Below are positions 42,015 to 48,658 of a DNA stretch of 64,000 bases, piece after piece; the stretch's first letter is position 1, and the number at the start of each line of letters is the position of its first letter. The translations under genes were made by a program, and so were the position numbers. The notes beneath the pieces are model-generated. The model worked only from the letters and a program-made list of their open reading frames with translations, did not search any database and had not been told where the DNA came from. The DNA comes from Candidatus Limisoma faecipullorum (GTDB lineage Bacteria > Bacteroidota > Bacteroidia > Bacteroidales > Muribaculaceae): positions 1 through 64,000 of the forward strand of contig JADIMC010000010.1 in the NCBI GenBank assembly GCA_017694955.1, written 5' to 3'.

Positions 42015-43028
42015 ATGGGGGCTTTGAATTTTTGTGTTGACTACAAGGCGGATTCCGGACGGTACGACGGAAGGATGCCGTACCGCAAATGCGGCAATTC
42101 CGGCATAAGGCTGCCGGAGCTTTCTTTGGGATTCTGGTGGAATTTCGGCGGAATCAACCCGCTGGAGGAGTCGCGCGAGAAGATTCTCTATGCATTCGAT
42201 CACGGAATAACTTGTTTCGACCTCGCCAACAACTACGGTCCTCCGTTCGGTACGGCGGAGCAGACATTCGGGCGTGTATATAAGGACAATCTACGCCCTT
42301 ACCGCAACGAGATGATAGTGACCACGAAAGCCGGCTACAATATGTGGGAGGGTCCTTACGGATGCGGCTCTTCTCGCAAGATGCTGATGGCAAGCATCGA
42401 TGACTCGCTGCGGAGGATGAATCTTGATTATGTGGATATATTCTACTCCCACCGTTATGACCCGGAGACGCCTATCGACGAGACAATGCAGGCGCTTGTC
42501 GATATCGTCAGGCAGGGCAAGGCTCTCTATGTGGGGCTTTCGAGGTATCCGGTCGATAAATTGCTCTATGCAATGAAATATTTGCAGGAAAGCAATGTGC
42601 CGTGCCTCATATATCAGGGCAGGTACAATATGCTCGACCGCGGGGTGGAGCAAAACATATTGCGCACGCTTTCCGCTTCGGGCATCGGCTTCACGGCTTT
42701 TTGCCCGATTGCCCAGGGTATATTGACTGACAAATATCTTAACGGCATACCGGCTGATTCGCGTGTGGGCAAAGGGCATTATCTGACGGAAAAAGACATA
42801 TCTGCCGATGTGCTTCGAAAAGTGGCGGCGCTGAATGCGGTGGCTTTGCGGCGAGGACAGACACTGGCGCAGATGGCCACTGCGTGGCTGCTTGCAAGGG
42901 AGGAGGTCACGTCGGTGATAATCGGTCCGCGGACGACGGCTCAGCTTATCGACAGTCTCGGCGCAGTGACTAACACTTCATTTGATAATGAAGAACTTAA
43001 AGAAATTGACAAAATATTAAACGAATGA
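42015..43028 (+). CDS. Aldo/keto reductase (YghZ/GpR-like)
   Basis: A 337-residue NADPH-dependent oxidoreductase of the YghZ (L-glyceraldehyde-3-phosphate reductase) subgroup. It shows the catalytic tetrad in a TIM barrel: Asp and Tyr in CFDLANNYGPPFGTAE, Lys in VTTKAGYNMWEGPYG, His in YSHRYDPETP; C-terminal cofactor contacts are in EVTSVIIGPRTTAQL. The true substrate is unknown; the subgroup handles methylglyoxal and small aldehydes. The stop overlaps the next gene by 4 bases (ATGA). Confidence 0.93.
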   Translation: MGALNFCVDYKADSGRYDGRMPYRKCGNSGIRLPELSLGFWWNFGGINPLEESREKILYAFDHGITCFDLANNYGPPFGTAEQTFGRVYKDNLRPYRNEMIVTTKAGYNMWEGPYGCGSSRKMLMASIDDSLRRMNLDYVDIFYSHRYDPETPIDETMQALVDIVRQGKALYVGLSRYPVDKLLYAMKYLQESNVPCLIYQGRYNMLDRGVEQNILRTLSASGIGFTAFCPIAQGILTDKYLNGIPADSRVGKGHYLTEKDISADVLRKVAALNAVALRRGQTLAQMATAWLLAREEVTSVIIGPRTTAQLIDSLGAVTNTSFDNEELKEIDKILNE

Positions 43029-43516
43029 CAGTTAAACAGATTGCGCAGTATCTGCTGCTCATAGCGGCAAGTTTTTCCATAAGCTCGTGCGAAAGCGTCG
43101 ATGACAACCGCGTACCGCCGGTGAGGGTGTTCATTAATTTGGGTAACACCGGGTTGTGGAACACTTATGGCGTGTCGGGCTACGGCGACTATCGCTTTTT
43201 TTCAAAAAAAGACCGCATACCTAACAATTACAGTTATACTGAAAAGGAATATACCGGTTTCGGGGGCGTTTTGCTCATCTATGGAGTTAATGGCCCGCTG
43301 GCCTACGACCGTGCCTGCCCGAATGAAGCCAAGCAGGATGTGGTGCTGAATATTGACAAGGAAAATTTCGAGGCGGTATGTCCGAAATGCGGCTCACGCT
43401 TCAATGTGTGCGAGGCATACGGTGCGCCATTGTCAGGACCGGCACTCGACAACCAATACGGTATGCGACGAGTTGGCATGACACCTGCAAACGGAGGCTG
43501 GATAATAAGTAACTAA
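43025..43516 (+). CDS. Lipoprotein with Rieske-like fold lacking the usual histidine ligands
   Basis: A 163-residue lipoprotein (lipobox ISSC, Cys22). The second half has the layout of a Rieske domain, YDRACPNEAK and then VCPKCGSRFNVCEAYGAPLSGPA, including the Gly/Pro-rich loop, but where Rieske proteins have Cys-x-His and Cys-x-x-His, this one has CPN and CPKC. It therefore probably does not hold a normal 2Fe-2S Rieske cluster; a different metal or a structural role is possible. Small lipoproteins of this type recur in Bacteroidota. Coupled by ATGA overlap to the aldo/keto reductase. Confidence 0.7.
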   Translation: MTVKQIAQYLLLIAASFSISSCESVDDNRVPPVRVFINLGNTGLWNTYGVSGYGDYRFFSKKDRIPNNYSYTEKEYTGFGGVLLIYGVNGPLAYDRACPNEAKQDVVLNIDKENFEAVCPKCGSRFNVCEAYGAPLSGPALDNQYGMRRVGMTPANGGWIISN

Positions 43517-44694: not shown

Positions 44695-45435
44695 TCATTT
44701 AAGGTCTCCTGCATTCATAGATGTACCCAATTTCATTTTTGTAGTATTATTATCCGCTTTGTCCTCGAAATTAAGTTTATAGAAATATTCTCCTGCAGAA
44801 TAAGTTTTCGTCCGTATGATTAGCCCTTTCAATGAGGGATTTTCCGAAAGCAGTTTGTCGGTATTGAACGACACGATGCCGTTGTATGGATATTGCTCGA
44901 CGTCGTTGTTGGCATTGTGGCGGAATTCCACGTATAAATATCCGTCTTCCGTCTTCTTAGGCTCGTCAACGGTGACAAGGTTTATATAATGAGTCTTGTC
45001 GCCGCCGGAAAAATATTGGAAGCGGAAATTCAAATATTTGTCGGTTGCCCATATTTCCGATACGGAGATGTAGTCGTCGCCTATCTCATTGGAATTTTCG
45101 GCTGTCAGATGCACGGGGTCCTTGACCAGTATCTTATACAGATAAAAGATGTCGATTTTCCCGTCATAGCCCTGAGGCTCTTCGCTGTCGAATGTGAATT
45201 CCACATACAGCCTGTCGCCTGCCTTGGCTTCTGCGGCTACTTCCGTCGAATTGCTTATCAGCAGTTTCCGTCCGCTGTCGGTTGCGATGAGGTAATTGAT
45301 TCCGTCCGCTTTTTCAAGGCTTCCGATGGTGGAATAATATGTGCCGTTATTGTCATCGTTCATACATGAGGATGTCACCGCCATTATGAAGGCGATGCAG
45401 ATGAGTTTTATTAAATTCACTTGAGACTTTGTCAT
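44695..45435 (-). CDS. NigD-like lipoprotein
   Basis: A 246-residue lipoprotein (lipobox VTSSC, Cys24, then acidic MNDDN). It has the two-domain NigD-like layout: an N-terminal beta domain (GSLEKADGINYLIATDSGRKLL, RLYVEFTFDSEEPQG) and a C-terminal beta-sandwich (DKYLNFRFQYFSGGDKTHYINLV, YLYVEFRHNANND). NigD-like proteins are named after a nigrescin locus gene but their role is unclear; they are common surface or vesicle-linked lipoproteins in Bacteroidota. The gene diverges from an ECF sigma gene, and an ECF-like promoter copy faces it, so it is a probable member of that regulon. Confidence 0.87.
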   Translation of the reverse strand: MTKSQVNLIKLICIAFIMAVTSSCMNDDNNGTYYSTIGSLEKADGINYLIATDSGRKLLISNSTEVAAEAKAGDRLYVEFTFDSEEPQGYDGKIDIFYLYKILVKDPVHLTAENSNEIGDDYISVSEIWATDKYLNFRFQYFSGGDKTHYINLVTVDEPKKTEDGYLYVEFRHNANNDVEQYPYNGIVSFNTDKLLSENPSLKGLIIRTKTYSAGEYFYKLNFEDKADNNTTKMKLGTSMNAGDLK

Positions 45436-45456
45436 AGTTTTAAATGTTTTTGTTTC

Positions 45457-45539
45457 ATAAACGGAGATTTGGGCAAATACTGCATCGGTGACAAAAAATT
45501 TTTTTATAAGATGCAGTTTTTTGATGTTTTTCCGTTTAT
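45457..45539. promoter_or_regulatory. Mirror-image pair of ECF-like promoters, NigD-like gene / sigma operon
   Basis: Each strand carries GATGCAG, 14 bases, then TCCGTTTAT: plus at 45510-45516 and 45531-45539; minus at 45486-45480 and 45465-45457. Both sets share one centre (about 45498), filled by A6T7 (45493-45505). If CGTTTAT is the -10, the spacing from GATGCAG is 16, normal for ECF promoters. Plus faces the sigma gene (ATG 14 bases after the -10 copy), minus faces the NigD-like gene (ATG 21 bases after). No TAnnTTTG box is present on either side. The sequences are seen; their role as ECF promoters is inferred. Confidence 0.7.
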
Positions 45540-45553
45540 AAAATACTTGAAAA

Positions 45554-46087
45554 ATGACCGAAGAGGAGATATATGAAGGCTGCCGGAGCGGCGATGATGC
45601 TGCCCGAAAGGAACTTTATGTGCGCTATGCAGGAAAGCTCCTCGCCATAGGTATGCGCTATCTTGCCGATAAGGAATCGGCAGAGGACACCCTCCACGAT
45701 GTGTTTGTGAAGGTGTATGGCTCATTCGGAAAATTCAAGTATCTCGGAAGCGGCTCTTTGCAGGCTTGGCTGACGAGAGTTATGGTGAATGAATGTGTGG
45801 GAAAATTGCGCGGCAACCGTTTGCTCGCGACAATCCCGGCGGATAACGTGGCCGACGACCTGCCGGAGCCGGACAGTGTGAAGGAAGTGCCGGCAAAGGT
45901 ATTGATGAGGATGATAGGAGAGCTTCCTGCAGGGTATCGTGCTGTGTTCAACTTGTTTGTGTTTGAGAAAAAGAGTCATAAGGAGATTGCGGAGATGCTC
46001 GGAGTGAGTGAGAAGACGTCATCGTCGCAATTCCTGAGGGCAAGGAAGGCTTTAAGTAGAAAAATTTATGAGTATTTGGACAAATGA
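45554..46087 (+). CDS. ECF-family RNA polymerase sigma factor
   Basis: A 177-residue sigma-70-type factor with only regions 2 and 4. Region 2 (about 20-85) includes LADKESAEDTLHDVFVKVYGSF; region 4 (about 115-170) includes ELPAGYRAVFNLFVFEKKSHKEIAEMLGVSEKTSSSQF, shown as two recognisable parts. It is translationally coupled (ATGA) to a membrane protein predicted to be its anti-sigma factor. The upstream promoter copy suggests it activates its own gene. It fits the group of Bacteroidota ECF factors partnered with dual-membrane anti-sigma proteins. Confidence 0.93.
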   Translation: MTEEEIYEGCRSGDDAARKELYVRYAGKLLAIGMRYLADKESAEDTLHDVFVKVYGSFGKFKYLGSGSLQAWLTRVMVNECVGKLRGNRLLATIPADNVADDLPEPDSVKEVPAKVLMRMIGELPAGYRAVFNLFVFEKKSHKEIAEMLGVSEKTSSSQFLRARKALSRKIYEYLDK

Positions 46088-47370
46088 AACGTGATATGGA
46101 ATCCGGTTACGATAAATGGTCAGAAGAATTGCGTCGGAAGCTCGAAGGCTATGAGGAGCCGGTGAGCGGCAATGTTTGGGACGCTATAAGCCGTGACCTT
46201 GAGAAACAGAAGACGAGGCGGCGTATGCGGCTTATGGTGGTGCGTGTCGTCGCTGCCGCCGCATGTGTGGCTTTGATTGCCGGCATTTATGTCTTTCTCA
46301 AGGACGAGGCTTCTACTTTAGGCACGTTGCAGTCGGGTGTCTCGATTCCGGAAATCACGGCTGAAGCCCAGGAAGGGGAGGAAGAGGTGAATCATCAGGA
46401 GGCAAGCCCTCCTTCAAGAAGGATGCCGGAAAAGCTGATTGCTGTCGCAAGATATGCTGACAGTGGCAAAAGGCTTGTCGTGACAGCTGACACTGTTGCC
46501 AATGATGCAGTGTCTCACGAAAGTCGGAGTGGTGATGCCGGAGATAATGGCGGAAATGCTGTTGATGCTGGCGGCAATAAAAAGGATGTGAAGGAGAAGT
46601 TTGATGAAGGCGGCAATAAAGCGTATCCGTTGTTTACTGGTGTCTCTGCAGGCGTTTCGAAGAAAAACCGCCGGTTTGGGGTGAGTGTGAAGGTAGATAA
46701 CGGAATAATAGCGCAAAATAGCAGTAACGGCGGATTTATGCCGATAGACAGGCAGGCGCGTCCGTTCGGACCTCTTTATGCTTCATCGCAGGGGGAGGCG
46801 GCGTTTAATTCGTCGTATGCTGAAATGGTGGCGAATAATGTGGAACGTCCTGTGCGGACTGACTTGCAATATGATGTTCCGGTGACGGCTGCCGTCTCGT
46901 TCCGATATGAGATAACCGACCGTTGGAGTGTGGATGCCGGCTTGAGCTTTACCCGCACAGGCGCGTCATGGCGTTCCGGGTCGGATGAGCATTATTACCG
47001 TTCGAAGCAGAAGGCTTATTTTGTCGGGATACCTGTGGATGTCAGCTTCACGATTTTTGACAGCCGTTACTTTTCATTCTATGCCTTGGCTGGCGGGAGT
47101 GTTGAGAAGTGTGTGGCCGGTAATGTCAGCACATCTCTTGTCGGAGGGCTGGAAGATGCGGCCTCGAATATGAAAGAGGGCTTGGCCGAGCATCCGTGGA
47201 TGTTTTCCGTGGCAGCTGGTGTAGGTGCGCAATTCAACATAACCGACCGCTCTGGAATTTTTGCAGAGCCGAGAATTGCCTATGTGTTCGACACGGCAGA
47301 AGATATGCTTTTGCGGAAGAACAATTCTCCGCAGTTCAATCTTAGTGTGGGAGTGCGTTTCAGTTATTGA
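46084..47370 (+). CDS. Predicted dual-membrane-spanning anti-sigma factor (Dma-like)
   Basis: A 428-residue protein with an unusual plan. Residues 1-48 are a charged cytoplasmic segment (KWSEELRRKLEGYEEPVSGN, then VWDAISRDLEKQK), 51-72 an inner-membrane helix (VVRVVAAAACVALIAGIYVF), 75 to about 235 a low-complexity periplasmic stretch rich in Gly, Asp, Ser and Glu, and about 240-428 a PorT/OmpA-like barrel ending FNLSVGVRFSY. It would thus link inner and outer membranes in one chain and hold the sigma factor. Dual membrane-spanning anti-sigma (Dma) proteins of this build are reported in Bacteroides thetaiotaomicron, where one controls an ECF21 sigma factor and vesicle formation. It overlaps the sigma stop by 4 bases. 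Confidence 0.8.
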   Translation: MKRDMESGYDKWSEELRRKLEGYEEPVSGNVWDAISRDLEKQKTRRRMRLMVVRVVAAAACVALIAGIYVFLKDEASTLGTLQSGVSIPEITAEAQEGEEEVNHQEASPPSRRMPEKLIAVARYADSGKRLVVTADTVANDAVSHESRSGDAGDNGGNAVDAGGNKKDVKEKFDEGGNKAYPLFTGVSAGVSKKNRRFGVSVKVDNGIIAQNSSNGGFMPIDRQARPFGPLYASSQGEAAFNSSYAEMVANNVERPVRTDLQYDVPVTAAVSFRYEITDRWSVDAGLSFTRTGASWRSGSDEHYYRSKQKAYFVGIPVDVSFTIFDSRYFSFYALAGGSVEKCVAGNVSTSLVGGLEDAASNMKEGLAEHPWMFSVAAGVGAQFNITDRSGIFAEPRIAYVFDTAEDMLLRKNNSPQFNLSVGVRFSY

Positions 47371-47432: not shown

Positions 47433-47440
47433 TAACTTTG
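47433..47440 (+). promoter_or_regulatory. -7 box before the OmpA-family gene
   Basis: TAACTTTG fits TAnnTTTG, 33 bases before the ATG; no TTTG at the ideal 18-20 base spacing. It suggests the OmpA gene can be transcribed apart from the sigma operon. Confidence 0.45.
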
Positions 47441-47473: not shown

Positions 47474-48658
47474 ATGAAAAGAATTATATTTGCAGCATTG
47501 GCATTATGCTGCTTGTTTACGGCAGGCGCACAGCGCCGTCAGGCATTGCAAGGCACCGGATTCCTTGATAATTGGTCTGTGGGATTTAATGCCGGAGTTA
47601 CCCAACCATTGGCGCATCCTTATTCGATAGGAGAGAATATCCGTCCGATAATGGGCGTGGAGATTTTCAAGCAGTTCACCCCCGTGCTGAAGTTGGGTGT
47701 TGCCGCCGATTTTGGCATTAATACTACTGGCGTGTACGGCAATCGCGGTGTGCGTACTGCATTCGACCATTCCAATGTGTCGTTGCTTGGTGGATTGAAT
47801 CTGATGAATGCGTTCGGAGGCTATAAAGGCGAGCCGCGGTTGTTTGAAATCGAGGCGATTGGTGGCATAGGCTGGGGGCATACATATGGTACATATGCCG
47901 TTGATGGATCGGACTATAATTTTATGACGACTAAGTTCGGTCTGAACCTGAATTTCAATGTGGGAGCATTGAAAGCCTGGACAATTGCACTGAAACCGGC
48001 AATCGTGTACGACATAGAGGGACGTGGAGCTGCACGCAACAATGTGATATTCAGCTCTAACCGTGCCAACGTGGAGCTTACGGCCGGGGTGGCTTACCAT
48101 TTCCGGACAAGCAACGGGGAGCATTATTTCACGTATGCTGACCTTTATGACCAGATGGAGGTTGACGCTCTCAACAGCCGTATCAATTCGTTGCGTTCGC
48201 AGCTTTCCGGCAAGGATGATGAGCTTGCTGCGGCAAATGCCCGTGTCGATGCGCTGGAGAACGAATTGGAGGAGTGGCGTAATCGCCAGCCGGTAGAGGT
48301 TGTGAAGACTGTTACGGAGACAAAGACGAGCTCGTCGTTGGAGTCGATTGTCACTTTCCGTCAGGGACGTACTTCAATCGATGCCTCGCAATATCCTAAT
48401 GTGGAGCGTGTGGCTACTTATCTCAACAACCATCGCAACGCTGTGGTAGTCATAAAGGGATATGCTTCGCCTGAAGGCAGCGCAGAGCTTAATGAGCGGA
48501 TAGCCAATCAGCGTGCGCAGGCGGTGAAGGATATGCTTATTAAGAAATACCGTATCGATGCGCGTCGTATCACGGCTGAAGGGCAGGGCATAGGTGATAT
48601 GTTCTCGGAACCCGACTGGAATCGTGTGAGCGTTTGCACGCTTATCGACGAGGAGTAG
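47474..48658 (+). CDS. OmpA-family outer-membrane protein
   Basis: A 394-residue protein with signal peptide (ALALCCLFTAGAQ), an N-terminal barrel of about 200 residues (WSVGFNAGVTQPLAHPYS; ELTAGVAYHF), a coiled-coil stretch (about 225-275, INSLRSQLSGKDDELAAANARVDALENEL) and a C-terminal OmpA peptidoglycan-binding domain (about 285-394: IVTFRQGRTSID, VVVIKGYASPEGSAELNERIANQRAQAV, GQGIGDMFSEPDWNRVSV). It tethers the outer membrane to peptidoglycan. It follows the Dma-like gene by 103 bases and may be linked functionally, but has its own -7 box. Confidence 0.9.
   Translation: MKRIIFAALALCCLFTAGAQRRQALQGTGFLDNWSVGFNAGVTQPLAHPYSIGENIRPIMGVEIFKQFTPVLKLGVAADFGINTTGVYGNRGVRTAFDHSNVSLLGGLNLMNAFGGYKGEPRLFEIEAIGGIGWGHTYGTYAVDGSDYNFMTTKFGLNLNFNVGALKAWTIALKPAIVYDIEGRGAARNNVIFSSNRANVELTAGVAYHFRTSNGEHYFTYADLYDQMEVDALNSRINSLRSQLSGKDDELAAANARVDALENELEEWRNRQPVEVVKTVTETKTSSSLESIVTFRQGRTSIDASQYPNVERVATYLNNHRNAVVVIKGYASPEGSAELNERIANQRAQAVKDMLIKKYRIDARRITAEGQGIGDMFSEPDWNRVSVCTLIDEE

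Follow-up and report, generated by a model that had tools for sequence, protein, structure and literature searches.

The locus at 45554-47370 of the window (the whole 64 kb stretch of Muribaculaceae DNA that was analysed) raises the question of whether an ECF sigma factor gene and the gene overlapping it encode a sigma/anti-sigma pair of the dual membrane-spanning (Dma) type, and which of their neighbours such a pair would control. In published relatives, the anti-sigma restrains the sigma factor, toxin or envelope stress induces the regulon, and NigD proteins rank among the outputs that it raises most. PMC13088901 reports that Bacteroides thetaiotaomicron lacking the anti-sigma makes more vesicles by way of NigD (citing Pardue 2024), and that nigD1 (BT_4005) is a Dma1 target required for hypervesiculation; Dma2 acts without raising nigD1 (PMC13088901). 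Vesiculation has been tested in B. thetaiotaomicron only, the same regulon being described in other species as one of oxidative or toxin stress.

The first gene (45554..46087, forward strand) encodes a 177-aa sigma factor of the EcfO/Das1 type, with Pfam Sigma70_r2 (1.3e-10) and Sigma70_r4_2 (1.2e-15) domains. Its overlap with the next gene by the four nucleotides ATGA, claimed in the preliminary description, is borne out by direct reading of the sequence. This next gene (46084..47370, forward strand) encodes the 428-aa anti-sigma, whose plan we traced from sequence, profiles and an AlphaFold2 (AF2) model built on a 114-sequence alignment. It comprises, all on the forward strand, a putative sigma-binding cytoplasmic module (residues 1-50; 46084..46233) that matches an N-terminal profile built from Bacteroidaceae only and contains helices at 7-20 and from 29 onwards, with Trp12 and Trp32; an inner-membrane helix (residues 51-72; 46234..46299); a disordered periplasmic tether (residues ~83-197; 46330..46674); and, at the C-terminus, an outer-membrane barrel with about eight strands (residues 198-428; 46675..47367). 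Hydropathy shows a single peak: the top window of 19 residues begins at residue 50 (mean 2.52), and the next non-overlapping window reaches 0.81. The AF2 model has helices at 7-20 and 29-82, pLDDT mostly below 50 from about 80 to 195, and about eight strands between 198 and 427 with pLDDT mostly above 90, and it resolves neither the tether nor the contact of the N-terminus with the sigma factor.

The charged N-terminus, the one inner-membrane helix (51-72) and the C-terminal barrel described earlier are all recovered in these data, the barrel additionally through PF13568 (a generic barrel domain; residues 238-385, 4.3e-9) and through Foldseek, which ranks OmpA-type barrels first (for OmpA, a target-normalised TM-score of at most 0.62). 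The low-complexity stretch of about 160 residues given in the same description needs correction: because the ordered part begins near residue 198, the tether is nearer 115 residues. A PDB sequence search with the anti-sigma profile returned no real match. We also considered the anti-sigma as a lipoprotein anchored through Cys61 and rejected this, as Cys61 lies within the helix and is not conserved.

A relation to Dma proteins, on which the earlier proposal of a Dma-type pair in another Bacteroidales family had been made to depend, proved strong in profile searches. Profile-profile comparison of the anti-sigma with Bacteroidaceae proteins gave E = 1.2e-60, and the cytoplasmic part, singled out beforehand for this comparison, matched on its own, with residues 1-50 scoring 35 bits (E 1.8e-10) against the Bacteroidaceae-only N-terminal profile and the best of 300 shuffles scoring 9 bits. 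The Dma family is marked by a sigma factor of group ECF21, by a chain that physically spans both membranes and by five further features. These five are present here—N-terminal module, single transmembrane helix, disordered tether, C-terminal barrel and adjacent ECF sigma gene—and this plan is not a product of chance, since it is common to more than 100 full-length relatives, nearly all of which adjoin or are fused with an ECF sigma gene. A transmembrane-like peak falls within the first 150 residues in 111 of 114 relatives. Across 61 related genomes, a protein search found relatives in 21. Seven loci carry the relative fused to an ECF sigma, and elsewhere it lies directly 3' of an ECF sigma gene, except at one locus whose sigma gene instead follows it closely on the same strand. 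A profile search of 295 genomes of the order gave matches in 201, of which many were weak or partial.

In a sigma factor tree built by a quick method, the window sigma grouped with its genus-mates and with NigD-linked Alistipes sigmas, and Dma3-like fusions formed a separate clade (support 100); deep branches of this tree are weakly supported, and the NigD-divergent rows did not form one clade. Natural sigma-Dma fusions of this Dma3-like kind occur at seven Muribaculaceae loci, where the sigma domain passes directly to the transmembrane helix and a separate anti-sigma module is lacking. Upstream of four of these loci is a distinct though related box, ATGCAGTCTTTT...CATC.

Comparison with characterised systems narrows the subtype. 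Dma2/Das2 (BT_1558/BT_1559) and Dma3 share family and architecture with the window pair, although in Dma3 the sigma factor is fused in one chain, unlike the separate genes here. Das1/Dma1 of B. thetaiotaomicron shares the sigma-binding N-terminus, transmembrane helix, disordered tether, barrel and NigD1-family output, a likeness of plan and output. The EcfO/Reo locus of Phocaeicola vulgatus ATCC 8482, like the window, has a divergent nigD adjacent to the sigma gene, which is followed by the anti-sigma gene, an order consistent with the published M0N98_03761/03760 sigma/anti-sigma pair and the nigD gene M0N98_03762 (PMC9308784, PMC13114119). The window sigma is 51-52% identical to the NigD-linked sigma of this strain, which is its best match in P. 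vulgatus (182 bits), followed by a sigma adjoining another Dma gene (121 bits, 37%) and then by the remaining sigmas, all below 45 bits. The anti-sigma is 28% identical to the P. vulgatus protein over its full length (155 bits), and the two NigD proteins, also 28% identical, both belong to the curated NigD1/NigD2 subfamily.

The window and the P. vulgatus ATCC 8482 EcfO/Reo system are thus alike in gene order, domain plan, promoter type and NigD subfamily. They differ in host, which is a member of the Muribaculaceae here as opposed to B. fragilis and P. vulgatus; in the -10 element, GTTTA in the window against ATTTA in our EcfO-type model, with a spacer one base shorter; and in the number of nigD genes, three being reported for the P. 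vulgatus regulon and one NigD1/NigD2-subfamily gene scoring over the cut-off in the incomplete genome of the window. The evidence supports reading the pair as Dma-type, and specifically as the NigD-linked EcfO/Reo-Dma1 type with a predicted span of both membranes, a link that runs via P. vulgatus and other Bacteroides proteins, and not via the sequences of B. thetaiotaomicron Dma1 or B. fragilis Reo. So read, the pair extends the Dma1/EcfO type to the Muribaculaceae, a family distinct from the published Bacteroides and Phocaeicola hosts, and is a well-supported addition to a known type, ordinary in kind and useful as a compact version.

The divergent gene (44695..45435, reverse strand) encodes a NigD1/NigD2-family lipoprotein (NF051862, 174 bits against a cut-off of 60), the only gene of this subfamily above the cut-off in the genome and the predicted output of the regulon. 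By scanning named genomes with an alignment of NigD-linked sigmas, we found the order of divergent nigD, sigma and anti-sigma at loci of Bacteroides, Phocaeicola, Mediterranea, Barnesiella, Alistipes and Muribaculaceae. A second NigD-like gene (C51) was considered as a target and set aside, its score of 55 bits falling under the cut-off and no promoter site lying nearby. We also observed a second arrangement of the three genes at six loci of other Muribaculaceae and Bacteroidales, where nigD precedes sigma and dma in the same orientation and the TGCAGT site is absent. Elsewhere in the window, the product of 43025-43516 is a small predicted lipoprotein that matches no Pfam family and whose C-terminus shows a Rieske-like pattern (ACPNEA...CPKCGSRFNV).

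The nigD-sigma intergenic regions have in common an inverted pair of TGCAGTATTT elements. We trained a two-box promoter model (TGCAGTATTT, spacer, ATTTA) on 21 sites from Bacteroidaceae loci only, and the label "EcfO-type" refers throughout to this model and not to the published B. fragilis EcfO motif. The top model site on each strand of the window is a predicted promoter in this region: one facing the sigma gene, ATGCAGTTTTTTGATGTTTTTCCGTTTATA (45511..45540, forward strand; 21.2 bits), and one facing nigD, ATGCAGTATTTGCCCAAATCTCCGTTTATG (45456..45485, reverse strand; 22.3 bits), placed back to back. One setting was chosen after seeing the window: its sites did not stand out with the spacer of 9 common to all training sites, and we then let the spacer vary from 8 to 10 and put a floor under the penalties. 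Random 64 kb strands given equal freedom (n = 40) reached maxima averaging 13.4 bits (sd 1.9, highest 18.7). The strict pattern TGCAGTNTTTN{8,11}NGTTTA, which we wrote to accommodate the G of the window's -10 box, is present in the 2.27 Mb genome at two positions only, both in the nigD-sigma region. Among divergent-nigD loci outside the training set, a sigma-facing site was found in 22/25 and an opposite-strand site in 24/25, compared with 10/54 and 3/54 at loci without nigD, in a tally that includes duplicate records (the window three times, two genus-mates twice).

The back-to-back sites predict that the sigma factor autoregulates and controls nigD. Shared promoter type and conserved neighbourhood uphold the earlier view that the NigD-like lipoprotein gene belongs to the system, and the conserved two-sided promoter is what ties NigD to the sigma factor. 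A text search of the literature for TGCAGTATTT gave no work on Bacteroidota among the matches listed. The predicted -10 box lies so near the sigma start codon (45534-45554) that the transcript leader would be a few bases long.

Could the response unit also take in the OmpA-family gene at 47474, as an envelope-reinforcing output? The gene lies 103 bp downstream of the anti-sigma on the same strand, with no clear terminator in the gap, and one genus-mate (L006) keeps the adjacency, all of which would suit the inclusion tentatively put forward in the preliminary description. However, the promoter model found no EcfO-type site upstream of ompA, where the region scores 0.1 bits, and the box TAACTTTG at 47433-47440 resembles by eye the standard Bacteroides -7 element (consensus TAnnTTTG, as quoted in PMC7366714). 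The gene is also missing beside the locus in L008 and L110 of the same genus and at essentially all other loci. With no site, and with an adjacency that varies even among members of the genus, the OmpA gene probably lies outside the system; we regard its membership as unlikely and have removed it from the model.

Several Dma subtypes coexist in Bacteroidales. By profile, P. vulgatus has two Dma-type loci only, and around the second Dma loci of P. vulgatus and Bacteroides no nigD lay within the stretches examined, so one may ask whether the window pair is of another subtype (Dma2-like, with another regulon such as polysaccharide-use genes) and NigD a mere neighbour. This is highly improbable given that the best P. 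vulgatus match is the NigD-linked locus, that EcfO-type promoters lie on both sides, and that the divergent NigD is conserved across genera and families. That the barrel gene encodes an outer-membrane protein of the ordinary sort, its signal peptide long or uncleaved, and lies 3' of a sigma gene by chance, is scarcely credible: Pfam sees the generic barrel domain alone, but residues 1-50, a charged domain conserved across the family with Trp12 and Trp32 ahead of the transmembrane helix, are for that reason not a signal-peptide n-region, and both the ATGA overlap and the sigma gene adjoining or fused to nearly every full-length relative speak against chance.

Returning to the EcfO/Reo (Das1/Dma1) type, the gene identities, architecture, orthologous relation, conserved order and conserved promoters established here very probably describe a sigma/anti-sigma circuit with NigD as output gene. 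In the unstressed cell, the N-terminal helices of the anti-sigma would keep the sigma factor bound at the inner membrane, binding by residues 1-50 being inferred by analogy, while the C-terminal barrel would anchor the same chain in the outer membrane. We hypothesize that the barrel is a sensor of the outer membrane and that the sigma factor is released by proteolysis: failure of the barrel to insert, or pulling, would probably be what carries outer-membrane or barrel-assembly stress down the tether, and regulated proteolysis would follow. A single M50 protease is encoded in the genome, a permissive finding only, since all 14 control genomes have one as well. The freed sigma factor would then act at the two back-to-back promoters, raising its own operon by positive autoregulation together with nigD. 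Control of the sigma factor, stress induction, NigD induction and any effect on vesicles are carried over from the published relatives and would apply here by analogy.

How large the regulon is bears on the use of the system. A tentative reading, which we hold to be somewhat less probable than its opposite, is that the regulon of this lineage comprises two promoters, through loss of others or because there were never more: those of the sigma/anti-sigma operon and of one nigD. The genome is about 89% complete, and the regulon count is therefore a minimum. If the two-promoter regulon is real, NigD would be the ancestral core output of Dma1-type signalling, and the locus would offer a minimal system for finding the role of NigD, whose effect on the outer membrane could be tested directly with few confounding genes.

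A relaxed form of the promoter pattern adds two sites in the genome, one within an ATPase gene and one intergenic on C116. The latter, a TGCAGTATTT-GTTTA site, lies about 90 bases upstream of a gene for a 229-aa secreted protein (L154:721-1410; G000:C116:23391-24077, reverse strand), and is possibly a third target or possibly a chance match. The secreted protein, which is lineage-specific, matches nothing in Pfam or NCBIfam and is absent from three genus-mates; related sequence lies just downstream of it.
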